Origin: Mucilaginibacter sp. SG564
GTDB taxonomy: Bacteria > Bacteroidota > Bacteroidia > Sphingobacteriales > Sphingobacteriaceae
Assembly (NCBI RefSeq): GCF_013149275.1
Contig: NZ_JABGNA010000008.1
Location: 186,001-250,000, forward strand
DNA length: 64,000 nt
Direction of reading: 5' to 3'
Shown here: positions 51,747 through 62,654 of the stretch, in pieces
How the letters are laid out: every line of letters starts with the position of its first letter
Position numbering within the stretch: the stretch's first letter is position 1
Notes under the pieces: generated by a model
Told to the model about the DNA's origin: nothing
Database searches by the model: none
What the model saw: the letters and a program-made list of their open reading frames with translations, nothing else
Made by a program: the position numbers and the translations under genes

Positions 51747-52154
51747 TCAGTTTGTTTTGTCGCGGCTCATTTCGGGGTGATAGTGCAGACCCGGGGTAAG
51801 CCAATACAATAGCATAACCCTGGAGTACCTGAAGTTAAATGGCGAAAGTATTACCGCTGCAGTAAGTATAACAGAAACATACAACCATGGATTTTGGCTT
51901 CCTGTTAAAACGCTGATGGCAACCGCGATCGTTACCATTTCGGCAACATTTAGCGCGTAGCTGGCAAACATAGCCACATAAAAATAGCCCGGCTCCCGCT
52001 CATAAACCAAGCCACAGTGCGAACATGTTTTATGCATTTCCTGTCCGCGAAAGCCATACATGCCATTGGCAAACATATCACCACGCCTGCAGCGCGGGCA
52101 TTTGGCATGTACAAAAGCTGGCCATGCCGCTAATTTATAGTTGTTATTTTCCAT
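51747..52154 (-). CDS. DUF983 membrane protein with zinc-ribbon
   Basis: A 135-residue protein. KCPRCRRGDMFANGMYGF and TCSHCGLVYEREPGYFYVAM are the DUF983 signature with paired CxxC; two hydrophobic helices follow (about 62-83, 90-108). The start at 52154 overlaps the end of the upstream AraC-type gene by 11 bases, so the two are one operon. Function unknown. Confidence 0.85.
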   Translation of the reverse strand: MENNNYKLAAWPAFVHAKCPRCRRGDMFANGMYGFRGQEMHKTCSHCGLVYEREPGYFYVAMFASYALNVAEMVTIAVAISVLTGSQNPWLYVSVILTAAVILSPFNFRYSRVMLLYWLTPGLHYHPEMSRDKTN

Positions 52155-53028
52155 GATCGTATAATAATTTTTTTCTGAATTCTTCGGGTGTAACATCTTC
52201 CAGCTTTTTAAAAAATTTGGTAAAGTAGGAGTTGTCACTGAAGTTTAATTTTAGTGATATTTCGCTGATACTGAGTTGAGGATTAGTCAGCATACGCTTA
52301 GCTTCCAGCATAATCCTGTTACGGATCATTTCACCGGCAGGTATCCCCATCATATCTTTACAAACCGCATTAAGATGGTTAGGCGTTATATATAACATAG
52401 CGGCATAATCCTTCGGTAACCTGATGTCGATATAATGATGTTCAATTAAATTTTTAAAGTTTTTGAGCAGGGTTTGATTGTAGGATGAATTATTATTTAC
52501 CACAGGTACCGAGGTTACCCGGTTAACCCTGATAAATATCTGAAGCATCAATAATCTGATCATATCGGCGGCCGAGGTGCCCAGACTGACTGCTTCTGTT
52601 AATATTGTTTCAAAAACTGGTTTTATGGCCGCATAGGTTTCGGCAGGTAAATTGATCACCGCATCAGAAAGGTTACCGCTAAAAAATGAAAAATTATCCA
52701 GGTAGCCGTGCTGCAACAAAAATGATTGTATAAATGATGCCGAAAAATTGATGATGTAGCCGTCGGTAAAACCCTCAAAGCTCCAGGAATGTACCTGGCC
52801 CGGTATCATGAAATAAATTTGCCCGGGTTTAACATCAAAGCTTTCAAAATCTATAGTGTGACTACCCGCCCCTTCTGTAAATAATACCAGGTGATAAAAC
52901 GAATGACGGTGGGTGGTAAACAGGTTTTTATGGGTATCCAGGTATGGCGCAAAACGGCTTATCAGTATGTCATCCTGATTGATATCAGATAACGAGCAGA
53001 TGTCATATAGTGGTATGTTTTGTAACAT
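52144..53028 (-). CDS. AraC-family transcriptional regulator
   Basis: A 294-residue activator-type regulator with an N-terminal cupin-like domain (HSFYHLVLFTEGAGSHTIDF, IYFMIPGQVHSW) and a C-terminal HTH pair (about 205-285: PKDYAAMLYITPNHLNAVCK, SISEISLKLNFSDNSYFTKF). It overlaps the DUF983 gene. Its divergent intergenic region contains ATGGTACTATT half sites and a 34-bp perfect palindrome, likely operators. The start is ATG at 53028. Confidence 0.9.
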   Translation of the reverse strand: MLQNIPLYDICSLSDINQDDILISRFAPYLDTHKNLFTTHRHSFYHLVLFTEGAGSHTIDFESFDVKPGQIYFMIPGQVHSWSFEGFTDGYIINFSASFIQSFLLQHGYLDNFSFFSGNLSDAVINLPAETYAAIKPVFETILTEAVSLGTSAADMIRLLMLQIFIRVNRVTSVPVVNNNSSYNQTLLKNFKNLIEHHYIDIRLPKDYAAMLYITPNHLNAVCKDMMGIPAGEMIRNRIMLEAKRMLTNPQLSISEISLKLNFSDNSYFTKFFKKLEDVTPEEFRKKLLYDHGK

Positions 53029-53061
53029 GAAACAAAATTACGCACCAGCTTGCCATTTATA

Positions 53062-53116
53062 ATGGTACTATTTTTATTTTAAATGGTACTATTCAATTAT
53101 AATTGAATAGTACCAT
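53062..53116. promoter_or_regulatory. Half sites and 34-bp perfect palindrome
   Basis: ATGGTACTATT occurs at 53062-53072 and 53083-53093 (21 bp apart) and inverted at 53106-53116. The second and third form a perfect, loopless 34-bp palindrome (53083-53116). Its placement near the AraC gene start suggests an autoregulatory operator. Confidence 0.65.
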
Positions 53117-53120
53117 AACA

Positions 53121-53152
53121 TTATTCGATACAGAGCACCCGGTATCGAATAA
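53121..53152. promoter_or_regulatory. Inverted repeat TTATTCGATAC
   Basis: TTATTCGATAC (53121-53131) and GTATCGAATAA (53142-53152) are perfect 11-bp arms with a 10-nt spacer, right beside the 34-bp palindrome; a second regulator site is likely. Confidence 0.55.
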
Positions 53153-53225
53153 TGAAGGACGAAATTGACGTTGGGACATTCAAAATTTATTATTCAATAT
53201 GGTTTCTTCTTAAATTAATGCCAGT

Positions 53226-53291
53226 GGTGTTATACGCATATTTTTAGGGTGTTATACGCATATTTTTAAGGTGCTATACACACATTTTTAT
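53226..53291 (+). repeat. Three tandem 22-bp direct repeats in a promoter region
   Basis: GGTGTTATACGCATATTTTT-AG at 53226 and 53248, and a degenerate third copy starting GGTGCTATACACACATTTTT at 53270, all at a period of exactly 22 bp (about two helical turns). A TATTTTG element follows the last copy, so an activator may bind three times on one DNA face. Confidence 0.7.
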
Positions 53292-53329
53292 TTTGCAGCC
53301 GTAGTGAAATTTGATAAAAAAATATCACA

Positions 53330-53812
53330 ATGAAAAATAAATTTTTGGTGGCTTGTTTAGTAAGTTTATTATCAGTCACATCAATCTACGCTTATACAGG
53401 TCCAAAAACCGAAGGTGCAGGCTACGCAGCCGTGATCCGCGATTTTATTGATAGCCATATGAACGGCAATTATAAAGAGCTTAACAAGATCCTGGACGAA
53501 AATTATACATTAAAAATTCCGCGCGGCAATAAAGTGATCCTGCAAAATAAATCAAGTTTGGTTGAAGCCATGAAAAAAGAAGCAGGCACCCAGCAAAACT
53601 GCCAGTCAAATTACGAAGTGCTGGCTAAAAGCGATGCGCTGGTGATAGCCAGGGTGGATTTTAGCTATCACGATAGTATACAGCATAATTATCTTACACT
53701 TGAAAGAGATGATGATAATAACTGGAAGATTACCCAGGTTTGTAAAATGTTTGAGGATCTGCAAACCACCACCCCAACAGGAACCACCGGTGATGTTACC
53801 GCTAAGAATTGA
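53330..53812 (+). CDS. Secreted NTF2-like protein
   Basis: A 160-residue exported protein. A signal peptide (to about residue 22, SIYAYTG) precedes an NTF2-like/DUF4440-type domain: IRDFIDSHMNGNYKELNKIL, NYTLKIPRGNKVILQNKSSL and the final KITQVCKMF. Such domains bind small ligands, but no ligand can be named. The gene lies downstream of 22-bp tandem repeats and just upstream of a sensor kinase gene, and may be its output or input. A terminator follows at 53880. Confidence 0.78.
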   Translation: MKNKFLVACLVSLLSVTSIYAYTGPKTEGAGYAAVIRDFIDSHMNGNYKELNKILDENYTLKIPRGNKVILQNKSSLVEAMKKEAGTQQNCQSNYEVLAKSDALVIARVDFSYHDSIQHNYLTLERDDDNNWKITQVCKMFEDLQTTTPTGTTGDVTAKN

Positions 53813-53879
53813 GTTTTAATAACTGATCTTATAATAAAGTTTTATAGGGGATTTTGACCAATATACCCTATATTAAATG

Positions 53880-53908
53880 AATCACCCCAAAAGGGTGATT
53901 TTTTTTAT
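53880..53908 (+). terminator. Intrinsic terminator of NTF2-like gene
   Basis: AATCACCC and GGGTGATT arms with a CAAAA loop, followed by a run of eight T. Confidence 0.85.
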
Positions 53909-53971: not shown

Positions 53972-56920
53972 GTGAACAAGTGTTTTTTATATCAGGTGAG
54001 GGTGTTTTGGTGTGTTGTACTCATTTGTTTGGTGCAGGTATTTCCGGCATTAGGGCAAAAATATACGTTTGCGCATTATGATATTGACGATGGCCTGATC
54101 CAATCGCAGGTGAATAAATTTACGATGGATAAAGATCATCGTTTATGGATAGCCACCTTTGGCGGAGCCTGCCGCTTTGACGGAAAAGAATTTTCGGGAT
54201 ATTCCAGGCAAAACGGATTACCCAACAACTATGTAAGCACCATTTTTTCTGATCGTGCAGGGCACGTATGGTTTGGTACACTTGACGGACTGGCCATGCT
54301 TTCTGCCGGCAAGATTATTAGCTACAAACCCATAGCTTCTCAAAAACACAATATTGTAACCGATATAATCCAGGACACAAATGGCACTATCTGGGTAGTG
54401 ATGAGCTATGGCTTATTTAAAATTACCGGTAACCAAATGGAACCGGTAACCTTTGATGACAGTAGCAAGGTAACCACCATAGCTGTTGATAAAACAGGAA
54501 AACTTTACGCTGCCGTTTACGGGAAAGGCATCTATTCCTTAAACCATGGACGCTGGGAATATTCTACGCCCTTTAACGGCAAATATGAACAACTGGCCGT
54601 AAGAAAAATGTTGTTTGACAAATTTGATGCTCAAAAAGCCTATCTGCTAACCTGGAAAGGCCTTTTCTACACCAATAATAATCAGGTAATGCCTTATGCG
54701 CCTAAACAAATGGCAAACGTGAAAGGACAACTGTTATGTATTGAACAGGATGAGTACAAAAATATCTGGATAGGTACCGATAATGGCGCCTACTGTTTAA
54801 TGGATGATGACGTTATTCATTACGACTCATCCAACGGCCTTACGGATATTTCTATCGCGGATATATATGTGGATGGGGATAATAATATATGGCTTGGGAG
54901 CCTGGGCAATGGTTTATATCGTTGCGAAGGCAGCAGGTATGTAACTTTTGATGGTACGCAAGGCCTGCCGGAATCGAAAATAATTATGGCCATCACTAAG
55001 GATTGGAACGACCATATTGTGTTAGGTGCCGATGGGGGAGGGTTAATAAGATATGACGGGAAAAAGCTCAGCAATATACCAACCCCACCCAATTCCAAAT
55101 ATCTGGCGGGCATACAATGTTTGTACACTGACAAAAATAAAACTGTTTGGATTGGCACCAGCCAGGCCGGATTATGGCAATATGATCAAAAAGGCTTCAG
55201 GTCGATAAAGGGAAGTGATGAAATAGCTTACCATGCTATTACGGCCGATGGTAATGGGGTTATCTGGTTGGCCACATCATTAGGGTGCTATTATTATGAA
55301 AAAGGTTTACTTAAACAGTTGGATGGTGTGCCCGAATACTCATCATCATTAGTATCAACAGGTAAAGATTCTGTATTTATCGGCACGCAAAATGGCATCG
55401 TGTTATTGGTTAATAAAAAGGTGGTTCAGACGTACAATCAGAGCTTTCTTAAAAATTCAGCTATCCTTACCATGATCAAATATCGTAACCAGATTTTAAT
55501 AGGTACGGATGACCGCGGCTTATTTGTCTGGAACCTGGAAAATAATCATTTAAAAAGGTATACTGTTAAGGATGGGCTCAAAGCAAATACTATATACAGC
55601 CTGGTAACTGATGAGGCAGATCATGTTTGGATAGGTACGGGTAAAGGAGTTAATCAAATGAAGTTTGATAGTGTCGCAGATAAATTCATGATTATTGATA
55701 ATTCCGGTTCAAAAGAGCCCGTTTTTGAAACCAATCAAAACGCTATACTTTATAAAGACCATCAGGTTTGGGTAGCAACTACAAAATCTGTGATGGTTTA
55801 TAACACCCGGGTACAAACAAAATCACCGTCACCACCACATATCATTATTGAAAATGTGAAGTTAATGCCGCAAATAAGCAAAAGTCAGGACACCGCCTTT
55901 TCTTATTTAACCGATGGGGTTACGTTAACATACAATCAAAATCACCTGGCTATTTCTTTCTTAGGTATCTATTTGAAAAATCCTTCGAGTGTATCATATC
56001 GTTATAAGCTGGTTGGTTTAGACAGTACTTTTTGTGCTCCCGTAAAAAATAATGTTGTTGAATACCCCATGCTGCCTCCGGGTAAATATACATTTAGGGT
56101 AAAAGCCATCAGTCCGGATGGTAAGGTTTCGCCAGATACGGCTAACTTTAGTTTTGAAATTGTTCCGCCATTTTATAAAACGCTTACTTTTCAAATATCG
56201 GCCGTATTGTTTTTTGTGTTAATAGGTTTTGGTTTGCAAAATATCTGGCATCATAGCAAAATACAGCGACAGCAGGCCATTGAAGCTATTAAGCAGGAAG
56301 AAAAAATAAAGATCAGGCAGCAAACAGCCGAAGATTTTCACGATGACCTGGGTAATAAACTCACCCGAATTTCTATACTTACAGAAATTTTAAATGCTAA
56401 AATTGATCAAACTAAGGCCGATCAGCATGGTCTTGTTGACCAGATCAAACAAAATGCAGCCGCTCTTTATAACGGCACCAAAGATATTTTATGGGCCCTT
56501 GACCCTAAAAGCGATAATTTATATGAAACTTTGTTGCATATAAAAGAAATCGGTATAGAACTTTTTCAGGATGTTCCGGTTGATTTTGAATTTAATAAGA
56601 TAGACGATAACCTGAAACAGGTTAAGCTGCCCATGGAGTATAGCCGCAATATTACCATGATATACAAAGAGTTGCTCAATAACACGCTTAAACACGCCGA
56701 CGCCGGGCAGGTGATGTTGCACTGGGCATATGCCGATAAAGATGAGATTAGTTTGCGCCTTACAGATAATGGTAAGGGTTTTAACGATAGTACCCTGTCA
56801 AAGGGGCATGGTATGCATAACATAAAAGCAAGGGCAAAACGTATTAATGCCGAGCTGATCATTATTTCGGAAGAAGGCAAAGGGACTTCGGTGGAGTTAA
56901 AGTTTAAAAAAATATTGTAG
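53972..56920 (+). CDS. Propeller-type sensor histidine kinase
   Basis: A 982-residue membrane sensor kinase. Signal peptide (about residues 8-28), then two-component-regulator propeller repeats of the DxxGxIWxGT type (about 40-620), a Y_Y_Y domain (about 650-735), a membrane helix (about 738-758), dimerisation helix with phosphoacceptor His790 (EDFHDDLGNKLTR) and an ATPase domain (NTLKHADAG, TDNGKGF, KGHGMHNI). The kinase type is HisKA_3 and the response regulator is encoded separately just downstream, so it is not a one-protein hybrid regulator. GTG start at 53972. It likely senses an extracellular signal such as a glycan. Confidence 0.92.
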   Translation: MNKCFLYQVRVFWCVVLICLVQVFPALGQKYTFAHYDIDDGLIQSQVNKFTMDKDHRLWIATFGGACRFDGKEFSGYSRQNGLPNNYVSTIFSDRAGHVWFGTLDGLAMLSAGKIISYKPIASQKHNIVTDIIQDTNGTIWVVMSYGLFKITGNQMEPVTFDDSSKVTTIAVDKTGKLYAAVYGKGIYSLNHGRWEYSTPFNGKYEQLAVRKMLFDKFDAQKAYLLTWKGLFYTNNNQVMPYAPKQMANVKGQLLCIEQDEYKNIWIGTDNGAYCLMDDDVIHYDSSNGLTDISIADIYVDGDNNIWLGSLGNGLYRCEGSRYVTFDGTQGLPESKIIMAITKDWNDHIVLGADGGGLIRYDGKKLSNIPTPPNSKYLAGIQCLYTDKNKTVWIGTSQAGLWQYDQKGFRSIKGSDEIAYHAITADGNGVIWLATSLGCYYYEKGLLKQLDGVPEYSSSLVSTGKDSVFIGTQNGIVLLVNKKVVQTYNQSFLKNSAILTMIKYRNQILIGTDDRGLFVWNLENNHLKRYTVKDGLKANTIYSLVTDEADHVWIGTGKGVNQMKFDSVADKFMIIDNSGSKEPVFETNQNAILYKDHQVWVATTKSVMVYNTRVQTKSPSPPHIIIENVKLMPQISKSQDTAFSYLTDGVTLTYNQNHLAISFLGIYLKNPSSVSYRYKLVGLDSTFCAPVKNNVVEYPMLPPGKYTFRVKAISPDGKVSPDTANFSFEIVPPFYKTLTFQISAVLFFVLIGFGLQNIWHHSKIQRQQAIEAIKQEEKIKIRQQTAEDFHDDLGNKLTRISILTEILNAKIDQTKADQHGLVDQIKQNAAALYNGTKDILWALDPKSDNLYETLLHIKEIGIELFQDVPVDFEFNKIDDNLKQVKLPMEYSRNITMIYKELLNNTLKHADAGQVMLHWAYADKDEISLRLTDNGKGFNDSTLSKGHGMHNIKARAKRINAELIIISEEGKGTSVELKFKKIL

Positions 56921-56937: not shown

Positions 56938-57564
56938 ATGGATCGGAGTATAAAAATAACCATTATTGAGGATGATGAAACTATTAGGAATGGTTATGCT
57001 TATCTCATTGGCGCTACAGAAGGGTATGAGGTGGTAAGTACCTACTGCTCTTATGATGAAGCCGCTAAAAAAATAACCACCGACCGTCCGGATGTTGTAC
57101 TATTGGATATTGAATTACCCGGCACCAATGGGGTTGATGCTATCCCTAAATTAAAAAAGTTATTACCACAATGTTATGTGCTCATATTAACGGTTTATGA
57201 ATCGGAAAAATTAATATTTAACGCGTTAGCTAACGGAGCATCAGGATACCTTACTAAAAATACGCCATCGGCTAAAATAATTGAATCTATTAAAGAAGTT
57301 AAGGACGGCGGTGGCCCCATGAGCATTAATATTGCTAAATTGGTTATACGTTCGTTTCAAAAAAACCAGGAGTCTCCTTTATCCAGACGCGAAACCCAGA
57401 TACTGGAACTGATAGGGGATGGGAAAAGCCGGAGCCAAATAGCCAAAGAACTATTTATCGACCTCGAAACCGTACGCAGTCACATCAAAAATATATACGT
57501 AAAATTAGATGTTAACTCCCGTGCCGATGCCATAAAGATGGCCAAACAAAACAAACTTATTTAG
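56938..57564 (+). CDS. LuxR/NarL-type response regulator
   Basis: A 208-residue DNA-binding regulator. The receiver has acidic pocket ITIIEDDETI and phosphoacceptor Asp57 in VVLLDIELPG; Thr near LILTVYES and Lys in YLTKNTPSA complete the site. The C-terminal HTH (SRRETQILELIGDGKSRSQI, VRSHIKNIYVKL) is of the LuxR type. It lies 17 bases after the kinase gene and is presumably its partner. Confidence 0.93.
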   Translation: MDRSIKITIIEDDETIRNGYAYLIGATEGYEVVSTYCSYDEAAKKITTDRPDVVLLDIELPGTNGVDAIPKLKKLLPQCYVLILTVYESEKLIFNALANGASGYLTKNTPSAKIIESIKEVKDGGGPMSINIAKLVIRSFQKNQESPLSRRETQILELIGDGKSRSQIAKELFIDLETVRSHIKNIYVKLDVNSRADAIKMAKQNKLI

Positions 57565-58174: not shown

Positions 58175-59044
58175 ATGATGGATTATTCAAAAACATTACG
58201 GAATAATAATAAAATTTATAGCCGTAGCAGCAGCCAGAAGCAAAATCAGCAGTACAGCTCAGATTTTAGCCTGAGGTTTGTTTTTGCAGGAAATGAACGT
58301 TACGATATAGGTAAACGGCATTTATCCATATATCCCGATTCTTTTTTAATATTGAACAGGGGTACACAATATTCAACCGATACCGATTCAGACATCCCAG
58401 TACAATCCTTCAGTATTAGTTTTGACCAGCAATTTTTGAAAGATTTTAAGGATTGTTGGACAACTGCCGATAGTCGCCTGGTAGGCAGGGGAGGTTATAA
58501 AGTAAAACAGCTTCAGGAATTTGACGAAACTATTTACCCGTTTACGGGTGATATCAGGCACAATGTATATCATCTTAAGCATTACCTGGATAACGGTATG
58601 CATGATGAATTACTGATTAATGAGTATTTACACCATTGTCTTATTAATTACTTTAGTATCTATAACGAAGAGATATTTAAAAAGGCTGAAAAGCTTCACT
58701 TTTTAAATCCAAGCACCAAAATAGAGATCCTGCGCCGGCTTAACCTGGCAAAAGAATATTTGTACAGCAACTATAATCAAAATATAAGCCTGGAAGATCT
58801 GGCCGAGCATTCATGCCTTTCTGTTAATCACCTGTTGCGCACATTTAAACAAGCCTTTAACCTAACACCGCATCAGTTTTTAATACAGCTGCGTTTAAAA
58901 AGAGCGCAATTGCTGTTAAAAAGCACAGCTTATCCCATCAATGAGGTAGTAAACCTTATTGGTTTTGAATGCCCGAGCTCCTTTATCAGATTGTTTAAAA
59001 CCCATTATAAAATTACTCCTTTAAAATACCGGCAAACAGCTTGA
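58175..59044 (+). CDS. AraC-family transcriptional regulator
   Basis: A 289-residue regulator. The N-terminal domain (FSLRFVFAGNERYDIGKRHL, LILNRGTQYSTDTDS) looks cupin-like; the C-terminal HTH pair is clear (LEDLAEHSCLSVNHLLRTFK-QAF, INEVVNLIGFECPSSFIRLF). It is translationally coupled to the VOC gene and precedes the SusC gene by 340 bp. A palindrome with 17-bp perfect arms follows its stop. Target genes unknown; SusC/SusD is one candidate. Confidence 0.9.
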   Translation: MMDYSKTLRNNNKIYSRSSSQKQNQQYSSDFSLRFVFAGNERYDIGKRHLSIYPDSFLILNRGTQYSTDTDSDIPVQSFSISFDQQFLKDFKDCWTTADSRLVGRGGYKVKQLQEFDETIYPFTGDIRHNVYHLKHYLDNGMHDELLINEYLHHCLINYFSIYNEEIFKKAEKLHFLNPSTKIEILRRLNLAKEYLYSNYNQNISLEDLAEHSCLSVNHLLRTFKQAFNLTPHQFLIQLRLKRAQLLLKSTAYPINEVVNLIGFECPSSFIRLFKTHYKITPLKYRQTA

Positions 59045-59093: not shown

Positions 59094-59148
59094 AATAGGG
59101 TAATGTGCGAGAATGATCAAAATGGTGATTATCGCACATTACCCTATT
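59094..59148. repeat. Long perfect palindrome between AraC and SusC genes
   Basis: AATAGGGTAATGTGCGA (59094-59110) and its exact complement (59132-59148), 21-nt loop. No T run on either side. It is a candidate regulator site or a terminator of the AraC gene; the remainder of the gap to 59387 shows no other structure. Confidence 0.65.
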
Positions 59149-59387
59149 TGCGTATATGTTATTATTGTGTTTGTATTACTGGTATGAGCTGTGAACCAGA
59201 CTTATATAATATTAATTAACTATTAAACACACTTCTATGATAATAGCGCCTACTTAAATATTTTCTATTTTTTTATTTACCGGAAATTCTCAAAATATCA
59301 GCATCCGGCCCCCTGGTACTATTGACTGTTCCCCTTTCTCAATCAGTACCTATTAAGATCTTAGTAATACTAATAAATTCAAAAAGC

Positions 59388-62300
59388 ATGAAACACAAAT
59401 TACTCAAACTTTTCATGGTTTGCTTTTTTTGCACGGCTTCTATGGCCTTTGCACAAAATAAAACGATTTCCGGTACGGTTACTTCAAAAGAAGACGGTTT
59501 GCCTATACCTGGAGCGTCGGTAAAAATAAAAGGAACCAGCACTGGTGGCCAAACCAATTTAAATGGTAAATATACTATAAGCGCTCCGGAAGGATCAACG
59601 CTTATCTTTAGCTTTATAGGTTACGCATCACAATCATTTGTAGTAGGAAACAAAACAACAATTGATGTAGTTTTAATATCAGATTCTAAAGCATTAAGTG
59701 AGGTGGTGGTAACCGCTAACGCTATTACAAGAGAGAAAAGATCATTAGGTTACTCTGCACCAACAGTTAAGGCTGATGAGTTAACGCAAGGCGGAAGCCC
59801 AAGCGCCATTAACTCTTTGTCTGGTAAGGTGGCAGGTGTAAATATTACCTCAACATCAGCAACTCCGGGAAGTTCTTCACGTGTGGTTTTACGCGGCGGA
59901 TCATCTATTTCTGGTAATAACCAGGCTTTGCTTGTTGTTGATGGTTTACCTATCGATAACTCCAGTGTTATTGGTGGCGGGGTTATTGGTAGCGGAGACG
60001 CTCGTTCAGCTGTTGACTTTGGCAACAGGGGTAATGATATTAACCCAGATGATATTGCTTCTATTACCGTATTGAAGGGTCCTGCGGCGGCAGCTCTTTA
60101 TGGTTCGCGCGCATCTAATGGTGCCTTGATCATCACTACTAAATCTGGAAATAAGAATGCCGAAAAAACGTCTATAACTTTCAATTCAAAAAATACTTTA
60201 TCTTCTATCCTTAAATTACCTGATTTTCAAAATCAATATGGTCAGGGATATTATACTGAAGCAGGTACCAATGACGCGAATACAACTTATTTTAATGACC
60301 CAAGAGAGAATGGTAGCTGGGGCGCTCCTTTTACAGGAAAAGTTCAGCCATGGGGGCAGGAAATTGATGGTGTTCAGCAAACAAAAGCCTACTCGAATCT
60401 TCCAAATAATATCCGCGATTTTTTCAGCACGGGCTATGCTGCTGATAACAACTTGACTTTTTCTGGCGGTTCAGAGAAATCAACGTTTTATTTAGGATTG
60501 AATGCCCTAAACAGTAATGGTATTCTTCCGGGCAATAGCGACACCTATAATAAATACGGGGTGAGATTTAACGGTCATACAGATTTTAGCAATAAATTCT
60601 CTGCCGGTATATCTTTTAACTATAATAAAATTAATGCTAATGAAGTAGCGGGTGGTCAGAATAACTCTTCTGTTTACAATAACCTTTTACAAACACCAAG
60701 AGATATACCTGTTACATCATTAAAGGATTTAAATAATAAATACAATAGCTTTGGCAGTTATGTTGATGCTAATGGCGTAACACACCCTAATACCTATGGG
60801 TATTATGGCGCTTATACCGTTAATCCTTATTGGATACTGCAAAACTATAAAAACCTGGATGACGTAAGCCGTATTACCGGTAACGTAAATTTGGGTTATA
60901 AGCCTTTAAGCTGGCTTAACATTCAGGAGCGGTTTGGTATAGACTCATATTCTGACAGGCGTAGGTTTATTGCACCAAAATATGCTAATGCTCCGGCTGA
61001 TACACAAAGCGACAATTATGATCCAACCGGTAACTTACAATCAAGCAATGGTAGCTATGAGATCGATCAGCTTAATGTAACGGAGTTTGTTCATGATTTA
61101 ATGGTAACCGCTACCCATAAATTTAATAATGATTTTAGTGGATCATTTATGTTGGGTAACAATATTCGTCAGCGTGAAGAAAATACTTCAGCAGTTTCAA
61201 CAAATACATCTGGCGGTTTGGTTGTGCCAAACTTGTACAATCTGACTAACAGTAACGGACCGCTTACTGTACTTACTGATAATATCAATAAAAGAAGATT
61301 AGTAGGTTTATATGCAGATTTAAACCTTTCATATAAATCACTCATCTTTTTAGAAGCAACCGCCAGGAATGACTGGTCATCTACTTTGCCAACACAAAAT
61401 AATTCGTTCTTTTATCCAAGTGTAGCCGGTTCATTTGTTTTCTCAGAACTATTAAAAGGCTCTTCCATAGCCAATGTTTTAAGCTACGGTAAATTAAGAT
61501 CAAGCTGGGCTCAGGTTGGTAATGATACCAGCCCTTACCAATTGTTAAACTATTTTTCAAGAACCATCGTTAATGGTAGTTTTGGTAATACCACTTTCCC
61601 TTTCCCTAACGTAGGTGGGCTATCAGCCAATAATACAATTGGAAACGCTAATCTTAAACCCGAAAAAACCTCTTCTTTTGAAATAGGTACTGAACTTGGA
61701 TTTCTGGACGGTAGAATATCAGCCGACTTTAGCTATTATAAAAATAATTCTAAGAATCAGATCCTGGCTATTCCTATTCCTAATTCAACCGGATATGGTT
61801 TTTCAGTTGTAAATGCAGGTGAAATTCAAAACAAAGGTATTGAAGTAAGCTTAAAAGGAACAGTGGTTAAAACCGATGATATCACCTGGGATCTTTACGG
61901 AACATATACCAAAAACAATAATAAAGTAGTTTCGCTGATGCCAGGAATTGATCAGGTTGTACTTGGTGGTTTTGGCGGCATGAGTATTGTTGCAGCTGTT
62001 GGCAAACCTTATGGTGAGTTTTACGCGGTTACCAACCAAACAGACCCTCAAGGCAGAACCGTTGTAAGCGCAACAAGAGGTCTTCCGCTGGCTACAGCAA
62101 AAGCACAATACTTGGGTAGCTATAATCCAAATTATCAGGCATCATGGGGTACCAACTTCCGCTACAAGCAATTATCTTTAAACGTATTGTTTGATACCAA
62201 GCAGGGTGGTAAATTATATTCCAGAACAAAAGATATTACAGGATTTAACGGAACATCGGCAGAAACTGGCGGTGTAAGGATGGGTGCCATATTCCCTAAT

Positions 62301-62654
62301 TCTTCTTATTTGCAAAACGGTGCATATGTGCCGAATACAAGCGTAACATATAACAAACAGGATCTGTATACAAGCGGTACAAACCCAGGTGTTAGCGTTA
62401 TTGATGCGTCATATGTTAAATTACGCTCAGCCGGTCTTTATTATACATTTAATAAGAGCCAGTTAAGAGGAACTCCTTTCGGCGCTCTTTCTGTAGGTTT
62501 ATATGGTAACAATTTGTTCCTGTGGACTGCAAAAGAGAATAAATTTGTTGACCCCGAGGTTAACTCAGGAGGTGCAGGAAATGCGCAAGGGTTTGACTAT
62601 TCTGCTCAACCGTCTGTACGCAATTACGGTTTTGACGTAAAAGTTTCATTTTAA
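59388..62654 (+). CDS. SusC/RagA-type TonB-dependent outer-membrane transporter
   Basis: A 1088-residue outer-membrane transporter, partner of the lipoprotein SusD homologue downstream. A signal peptide (to about residue 22, AFAQ) precedes a carboxypeptidase-regulatory-like domain (about 25-100: ISGTVTSKEDGLPIPGASVK), a plug domain (about 115-230, ending ALYGSRASNGALIITTKSGN) and a 22-strand barrel. ATG at 59388 fits the signal peptide. Binds and imports an oligosaccharide or other nutrient with TonB energy; the substrate cannot be told from sequence. Confidence 0.95.
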   Translation: MKHKLLKLFMVCFFCTASMAFAQNKTISGTVTSKEDGLPIPGASVKIKGTSTGGQTNLNGKYTISAPEGSTLIFSFIGYASQSFVVGNKTTIDVVLISDSKALSEVVVTANAITREKRSLGYSAPTVKADELTQGGSPSAINSLSGKVAGVNITSTSATPGSSSRVVLRGGSSISGNNQALLVVDGLPIDNSSVIGGGVIGSGDARSAVDFGNRGNDINPDDIASITVLKGPAAAALYGSRASNGALIITTKSGNKNAEKTSITFNSKNTLSSILKLPDFQNQYGQGYYTEAGTNDANTTYFNDPRENGSWGAPFTGKVQPWGQEIDGVQQTKAYSNLPNNIRDFFSTGYAADNNLTFSGGSEKSTFYLGLNALNSNGILPGNSDTYNKYGVRFNGHTDFSNKFSAGISFNYNKINANEVAGGQNNSSVYNNLLQTPRDIPVTSLKDLNNKYNSFGSYVDANGVTHPNTYGYYGAYTVNPYWILQNYKNLDDVSRITGNVNLGYKPLSWLNIQERFGIDSYSDRRRFIAPKYANAPADTQSDNYDPTGNLQSSNGSYEIDQLNVTEFVHDLMVTATHKFNNDFSGSFMLGNNIRQREENTSAVSTNTSGGLVVPNLYNLTNSNGPLTVLTDNINKRRLVGLYADLNLSYKSLIFLEATARNDWSSTLPTQNNSFFYPSVAGSFVFSELLKGSSIANVLSYGKLRSSWAQVGNDTSPYQLLNYFSRTIVNGSFGNTTFPFPNVGGLSANNTIGNANLKPEKTSSFEIGTELGFLDGRISADFSYYKNNSKNQILAIPIPNSTGYGFSVVNAGEIQNKGIEVSLKGTVVKTDDITWDLYGTYTKNNNKVVSLMPGIDQVVLGGFGGMSIVAAVGKPYGEFYAVTNQTDPQGRTVVSATRGLPLATAKAQYLGSYNPNYQASWGTNFRYKQLSLNVLFDTKQGGKLYSRTKDITGFNGTSAETGGVRMGAIFPNSSYLQNGAYVPNTSVTYNKQDLYTSGTNPGVSVIDASYVKLRSAGLYYTFNKSQLRGTPFGALSVGLYGNNLFLWTAKENKFVDPEVNSGGAGNAQGFDYSAQPSVRNYGFDVKVSF

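Follow-up and report, generated by a model that had tools for sequence, protein, structure and literature searches.

How many control systems share the crowded intergenic stretch between two divergent genes of this Mucilaginibacter genome, and which regulators would read them? The stretch in question (positions 53029-53329 of the window, i.e. of the whole 64,000 nucleotides of DNA that were analysed) is 301 bp long, has a GC content of 30% and lies between AraC1, a gene on the minus strand for an AraC-family regulator of 294 aa (52144-53028; AraC_binding PF02311 and HTH_18 PF12833, both above cutoff), and a gene on the plus strand for an NTF2-like protein of 160 aa (53330-53812; weak Pfam match to Lumazine_bd_2, PF12893, and an N-terminus that looks signal-like by eye). 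The first-pass annotation described it as one divergent promoter region that holds four types of regulator-like repeats. The repeats themselves are not a matter of chance, because none of 1000 dinucleotide-preserving shuffles of the 301-bp stretch reached any of four measures, namely the longest palindrome (34 bp observed against 22 in the best shuffle), the longest exact direct repeat (21 against 15), the self-match at a lag of 18-26 (39/44 against 28) and the longest inverted arm (15 against 12). Judged from sequence and its conservation, however, the stretch is not a single multi-regulator switch: it is made up of two separate, conserved sites of predicted AraC type that lie side by side. 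We hold it to be quite probable that these mark two independent, back-to-back promoters that resemble AraC-type class-II activator promoters, the one read by AraC1, the other, with its 22-bp repeats, by a second AraC-family regulator (AraC2) encoded further downstream, and that the remaining inverted repeat, TTATTCGATAC, is a remnant. The sites, their conservation, their spacing, their register and their genomic association are the observed part of this explanation.

On the AraC1 side two ATGGTACTATT half-sites lie 21 bp apart (53062-53072 and 53083-53093), as had been described. Both are on the minus strand, the first being the promoter-proximal half-site (AATAGTACCAT on the gene strand) and the second the distal direct one, and an AraC-type HTH regulator is encoded right beside them. 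The palindrome of 34 bp (53083-53116) is indeed perfect, but it is not a separate feature, for it consists of the second ATGGTACTATT copy together with a third, inverted half-site (53106-53116, plus strand). Half-sites and palindrome thus form one operator. Most genomes of the genus that were searched have an AraC1 orthologue, and in all 30 orthologues compared (57-100% identity) the upstream region carries a TAAATAGTACCAT-like pair of half-sites 21 bp apart, including the proximal one, that ends 29-36 nt before the ATG. A box of the TAnnTTTG type, known as the -7 element of the phylum's primary sigma factor (a -33 TTTG is found in some species only; PMC7366714, PMC9723704), follows 1-7 nt before the ATG in 30/30 cases, with all six fixed positions in 29; in our genome it reads TAATTTTG (53033-53040, minus strand) and stands 4 nt before the ATG. 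As a consequence of this position in all 30 orthologues, the AraC1 mRNA is predicted to be near-leaderless throughout the genus. The distance between the end of the proximal half-site and the end of the -7 box is almost fixed as well (28 bp in 19 orthologues, 29 bp in the other 11), so that conserved direct half-sites about 21 bp apart adjoin the -33/-35 region in 30/30.

Here the half-site nearest the promoter borders on the -33 region, an arrangement known from class-II activation by AraC-family proteins, and the AraC1 operator looks like one of class-II autoregulation. An AraC1 dimer would sit on the two direct half-sites 21 bp apart, and the downstream half-site, abutting the -33 region, would activate (or otherwise autoregulate) AraC1's own near-leaderless transcript. 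Protein binding, ligands, the sign of regulation and the start sites are the inferred part of our explanation, and the sign in particular could be the reverse: AraC1 may repress itself, if RNA polymerase is kept off, rather than recruited, by the half-site next to the -33 region. Operator geometry alone leaves the sign unfixed and autorepression is common among AraC-family proteins, yet the fixed register of 28-29 bp to the -7 box, which matches that of the AraC2-type promoters described below, is what the positioning of an activator predicts, and we therefore consider autorepression possible, albeit distinctly the less probable option.

Does this operator serve AraC1 or its divergent neighbour? 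The gene upstream of AraC1 varies among relatives: in four genomes (G013, G020, G026, G032) its product, of about 590 aa, looks by eye like a hybrid histidine kinase, and in two others (G064, G085) it is an aldo/keto reductase-like gene. The operator is kept in front of these other neighbours, and we therefore assign it to AraC1 rather than to its divergent partner. The third half-site, and with it the palindrome, recurs with small changes in G159, G103 and G106 and is also present in G064 and G085, two genomes without an adjacent NTF2-like gene; it is absent in G111 and in the more distant orthologues. It appears to be a more recent part of the operator, which in close relatives only would add AraC1 binding to the same promoter. 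That AraC1 acts on both divergent promoters, with the inverted half-site also controlling the NTF2-like gene, is suggested by the location of the palindrome between the two genes and by the direction of the third half-site, which points toward the NTF2-like gene. Nevertheless, G064 and G085 also have the three-site operator although an aldo/keto reductase gene, oriented like AraC1, intervenes there, the palindrome is some 190 bp away from the -7 box of the NTF2-like gene, and no such sites were seen at NTF2-like promoters elsewhere, all of which makes a dual role improbable. Autoregulation is in fact the only AraC1 target that can be named, because a search with up to 3 mismatches found the strict pair nowhere else in its own genome and a relaxed search performed no better than the reversed control (25+30 against 25+29 matches), so that no further targets are nameable. 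The local AraC protein, one of the two candidates put forward earlier, is thus the best candidate for the ATGGTACTATT sites.

Next to this operator lies the inverted repeat CATTATTCGATAC-N10-GTATCGAATAATG (53119-53154, unstranded). The repeat had been noted before with 11-bp arms; it is present, and its perfect arms in fact measure 13 nt (53119-53131 and 53142-53154). Arms of this perfection, beyond what shuffling yields, could speak for a real operator or a regulatory hairpin. The segment is absent in G159, however, and in G103 and G106 a related sequence that is not inverted occupies its position, while in all three the flanking operators have been conserved; moreover, the surroundings resemble other intergenic stretches of the genome (weak, partial matches at several places, with best non-self E-values of about 0.01-0.1 for one genome). 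We thus regard a regulatory role as unlikely and the repeat as probably not an operator. The best reading appears to be that of a degenerate remnant of an interspersed intergenic repeat, a part of our explanation that is less certain than the others. As an aside, the whole of 53119-53222 has the appearance of degenerate intergenic repeats, the words TCGAATAATGAA and TTCATTATTCGA recurring at several places in the genome. The proposed four types of repeats are thereby not upheld, given that half-sites and palindrome are one operator and that the unconserved TTATTCGATAC repeat is probably none.

On the other side of the stretch three tandem direct repeats of 22 bp are present, as reported, all on the plus strand: a distal copy (53226-53247, half-site GGTGTTATACGCATAT, taken as the 100% reference), a middle copy (53248-53269, half-site GGTGTTATACGCATAT, 95% identity to the first) and a proximal copy (53270-53291, half-site GGTGCTATACACACAT, 82% identity to the first). 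The third copy starts 44 bp from the end of the -7 box of the NTF2-like promoter (GAAATTTG, 53306-53313, plus strand). The same register is found among relatives: in 22 of the 28 NTF2-like promoters a half-site start and the -7 box end are exactly 44 bp apart. The six exceptions include L079 and L149, for which a different TTTG had been picked as the box, and L128, whose proximal copy has changes in the first bases and did not pass the filter. All named records with NTF2-like orthologues are from Mucilaginibacter, and where the orthologue is located at another locus it is preceded by 1-3 copies of GGTGTTATnnGCATAT with a period of 21-22 bp. The repeats thus belong to the NTF2-like gene and accompany it to other loci, which, together with the persistence of the AraC1 operator beside other neighbours, lends no support to the notion of one shared divergent promoter. 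The further matches to the strict NTF2-type motif in the own genome are in coding regions. Two of the earlier expectations on the stretch do find support, namely that the period of 21-22 bp places the sites on the same face of the DNA and that more than one regulator probably acts here (two predicted AraC-type operators). Conservation of spacing in relatives, named earlier as a check, is observed (the 21-bp pair at AraC1 in 30/30, the 44-bp register in 22/28 NTF2-like promoters).

Which protein, then, would read the 22-bp repeats? The NTF2-like gene is the first of a conserved block with the order NTF2-like protein, sensor kinase, NarL-type response regulator, glyoxalase-fold protein, AraC2, SusC and SusD. 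In the window, all on the plus strand, these include a Reg_prop/Y_Y_Y sensor histidine kinase, as identified by domain search (53972-56920), the LuxR/NarL-type response regulator that was the second candidate of the first-pass annotation (56938-57564), AraC2, the AraC-family regulator that we propose as binder of the repeats and that the first-pass annotation had not named, about 5 kb downstream (58175-59044), and susC, which encodes a TonB-dependent receptor (59388-62654, from the likely ATG). The NTF2-like gene is followed by a terminator-like hairpin (53879-53901, plus strand; consensus scan only), which separates it from the gene for the sensor kinase, so that transcription may not run from one into the other. 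G008 (L038) has a LytTR-like gene on the upstream side of the NTF2-like one, which suggested yet another reader; this idea was dropped because no such gene was seen beside the NTF2-like gene at the other loci and AraC2 is the constant neighbour.

The response regulator, in its phosphorylated form, might bind the repeats and control the NTF2-like gene, as it is encoded just two genes downstream and is linked to that gene in most relatives. Five genomes without an orthologue (G113, G128, G032, G025 and G022, at E<=1e-40) nevertheless keep AraC2 together with half-sites at 44 bp, so that the sites are not confined to genomes with a regulator of this type, and in three others (G008, G062, G155) the closest homologue by sequence is located at another locus while the NTF2-like repeats stay beside AraC2. 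A half-site of about 16 bp in direct repeats of 21-22 bp is, furthermore, typical of AraC-type and not of NarL-type sites. There is consequently little to recommend the response regulator as the reader; it and the sensor kinase, linked as they are to AraC2 in most genomes, may have an indirect role.

Because AraC2 is the constant neighbour and the sites persist in genomes without the response regulator, AraC2 is the likely binder of the 22-bp repeats: it is the AraC-type HTH regulator that is consistently linked to sites of this kind, and the three GGTGTTATnnGCATAT half-sites with their 22-bp period would be read by it. Its two recognition helices are nearly invariant wherever the half-site motif is the standard one, and differ in a clade (L158-L161; one clade only) in which the half-site is GGTTTTTTTCGAA(C/T)AT. 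The link between AraC2 and the sites is not universal, since no site scoring at least 12 was present in some AraC2 neighbourhoods (L144-L147 and L155-L157, among them that of G023, which is without the response regulator). In front of four AraC2 paralogues (L152, L153, L154 and L164; about 50-55% identical), 56-62 bp upstream of their own start, stands a single half-site of this type in the opposite orientation; these paralogues adjoin pairs of histidine kinase and response regulator without an NTF2-like gene.

A second set of sites is found between AraC2 and susC, where a half-site similar to that of the NTF2-like promoter (GGTGATTnnCGCATAT, differing from GGTGTTATnnGCATAT at several positions) occurs in inverted or in 21-bp direct pairs. 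In our genome the pair is inverted (59103-59139, with GATCATTCTCGCACAT at 59103-59118 on the minus strand and GGTGATTATCGCACAT at 59124-59139 on the plus strand) and the -7 box of the susC promoter (TATTATTG, 59160-59167, plus strand) ends 44 bp from the half-site start. Matches to the inverted form were recovered in 9 of 149 genus genomes and each of them is beside AraC2. For the sites downstream of AraC2 a -7-like box was present at exactly 44 bp in 29/36 cases, whereas 132 background matches gave no peak, with the proviso that the AraC2 motif matrix was built partly from loci that were later scored with it, and that the counts of sites overstate their independence because the species are related. 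The direct repeats of 21-22 bp at a fixed promoter register are thus a recurrent arrangement, of which some promoters have a single copy and the susC promoters often an inverted one. The register is, moreover, that of AraC1, as 44 bp minus a half-site of 16 bp leaves 28 bp. AraC2 would then read half-sites that are closely similar and share the 44-bp register at three places, the NTF2-like gene, the susC operon and a small RNA.

The small RNA came to light through a half-site match in the own genome about 5.6 kb past the end of the window (G000:C8:255577), which leads to a TATGTTTG box at the same 44 bp. Behind this box follows a conserved stretch of about 85 nt that ends in a terminator hairpin (L248:6125-6208, corresponding to about 255624-255707 of G000:C8). 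Of the loci examined, 28 carry it, placed either close to AraC2 or a few kb further down, and in 24/25 of its promoters the site is exactly 44 bp from the -7 box. The core of the candidate RNA (AGTTAATAGTTAAT) is near-invariant and the loop CGCGAGG invariant; 8 of the 12 pairs of the terminator stem have changes on both sides, and the stem scores 0.456 for covariation, against 0.217 when shuffled and no more than 0.175 for slid controls. With no Rfam family matching above the gathering score, the RNA is apparently undescribed. The other one-mismatch matches to the susC-type half-site in the own genome were inspected and none was established as a target.

A stretch of 15 nt in the susC leader (TTAATTAACTATTAA, 59212-59226, plus strand) is a perfect complement to this core. 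This complementarity extends over 12-16 nt in close relatives and G111, and is mostly absent in more distant loci; in 911 kb of sequence the 11-mer TTAACTATTAA is, antisense copies of the small RNA aside, seldom encountered and mostly confined to these leaders. Such pairing suggests that the small RNA may act on the susC mRNA. That the AraC2 regulon as a whole comprises the (probably exported) NTF2-like protein, the susC/susD operon and a small RNA pairing with the susC leader via AGTTAATAGTTAAT is a tentative proposal, which we put somewhat below even chances.

Both operators are new examples of an already known kind of AraC-type operator. As in E. coli AraC at araI1-araI2, direct half-sites lie about 21 bp apart with the downstream one adjoining the -35/-33 region, and the proteins share the AraC-type binding domain with two HTH motifs that is characteristic of the family. 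In contrast to the E. coli system, the -7 box of the promoters here is that of the Bacteroidota, an inverted third site is part of one operator while the other has 1-3 tandem copies, and no counterpart was identified of the distant araO2 site, from which AraC classically shifts, i.e. from araO2/araI1 to araI1/araI2 beside the polymerase (PMC6018408). Closer to home, the AraC-type HTCS regulators of Bacteroides have motifs whose published form is a 21-bp direct repeat of 16-bp sites with a 5-bp spacer, and have the AraC-type HTH and the linkage to susC/susD in common with the present systems (PMC3878776). AraC1 and AraC2 are nevertheless stand-alone proteins of 289-294 aa and not HTCS proteins, because kinase and AraC domains reside on separate proteins rather than being fused, and AraC2-type sites also come as inverted pairs. 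The small RNA, lastly, is near a susC/susD locus like the antisense RNAs of the type of DonS, which is associated with a PUL of Bacteroides (PMC7366714), but differs in that it is encoded separately, under an AraC2-type promoter and with a terminator of its own, and has a short complementarity to the susC leader. A search for literature on AraC regulators or small RNAs in Mucilaginibacter or Sphingobacteriaceae returned nothing on point.

In the Sphingobacteriaceae, regulators have rarely been matched to their sites. Here, a promoter region that looks crowded resolves into two clean and separable operators, each with a named candidate regulator, and the exact register (44 bp from the half-site start to the end of the -7 box) is usable for finding AraC targets in this family. 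The search for AraC2 sites has in addition brought to light a conserved small RNA that seems to be controlled in the same way and for which a specific mRNA partner can be tested. If the proposed regulon is true, one regulator would activate an uptake operon and at the same time tune its mRNA by means of an RNA, that is, it would constitute a feed-forward loop.
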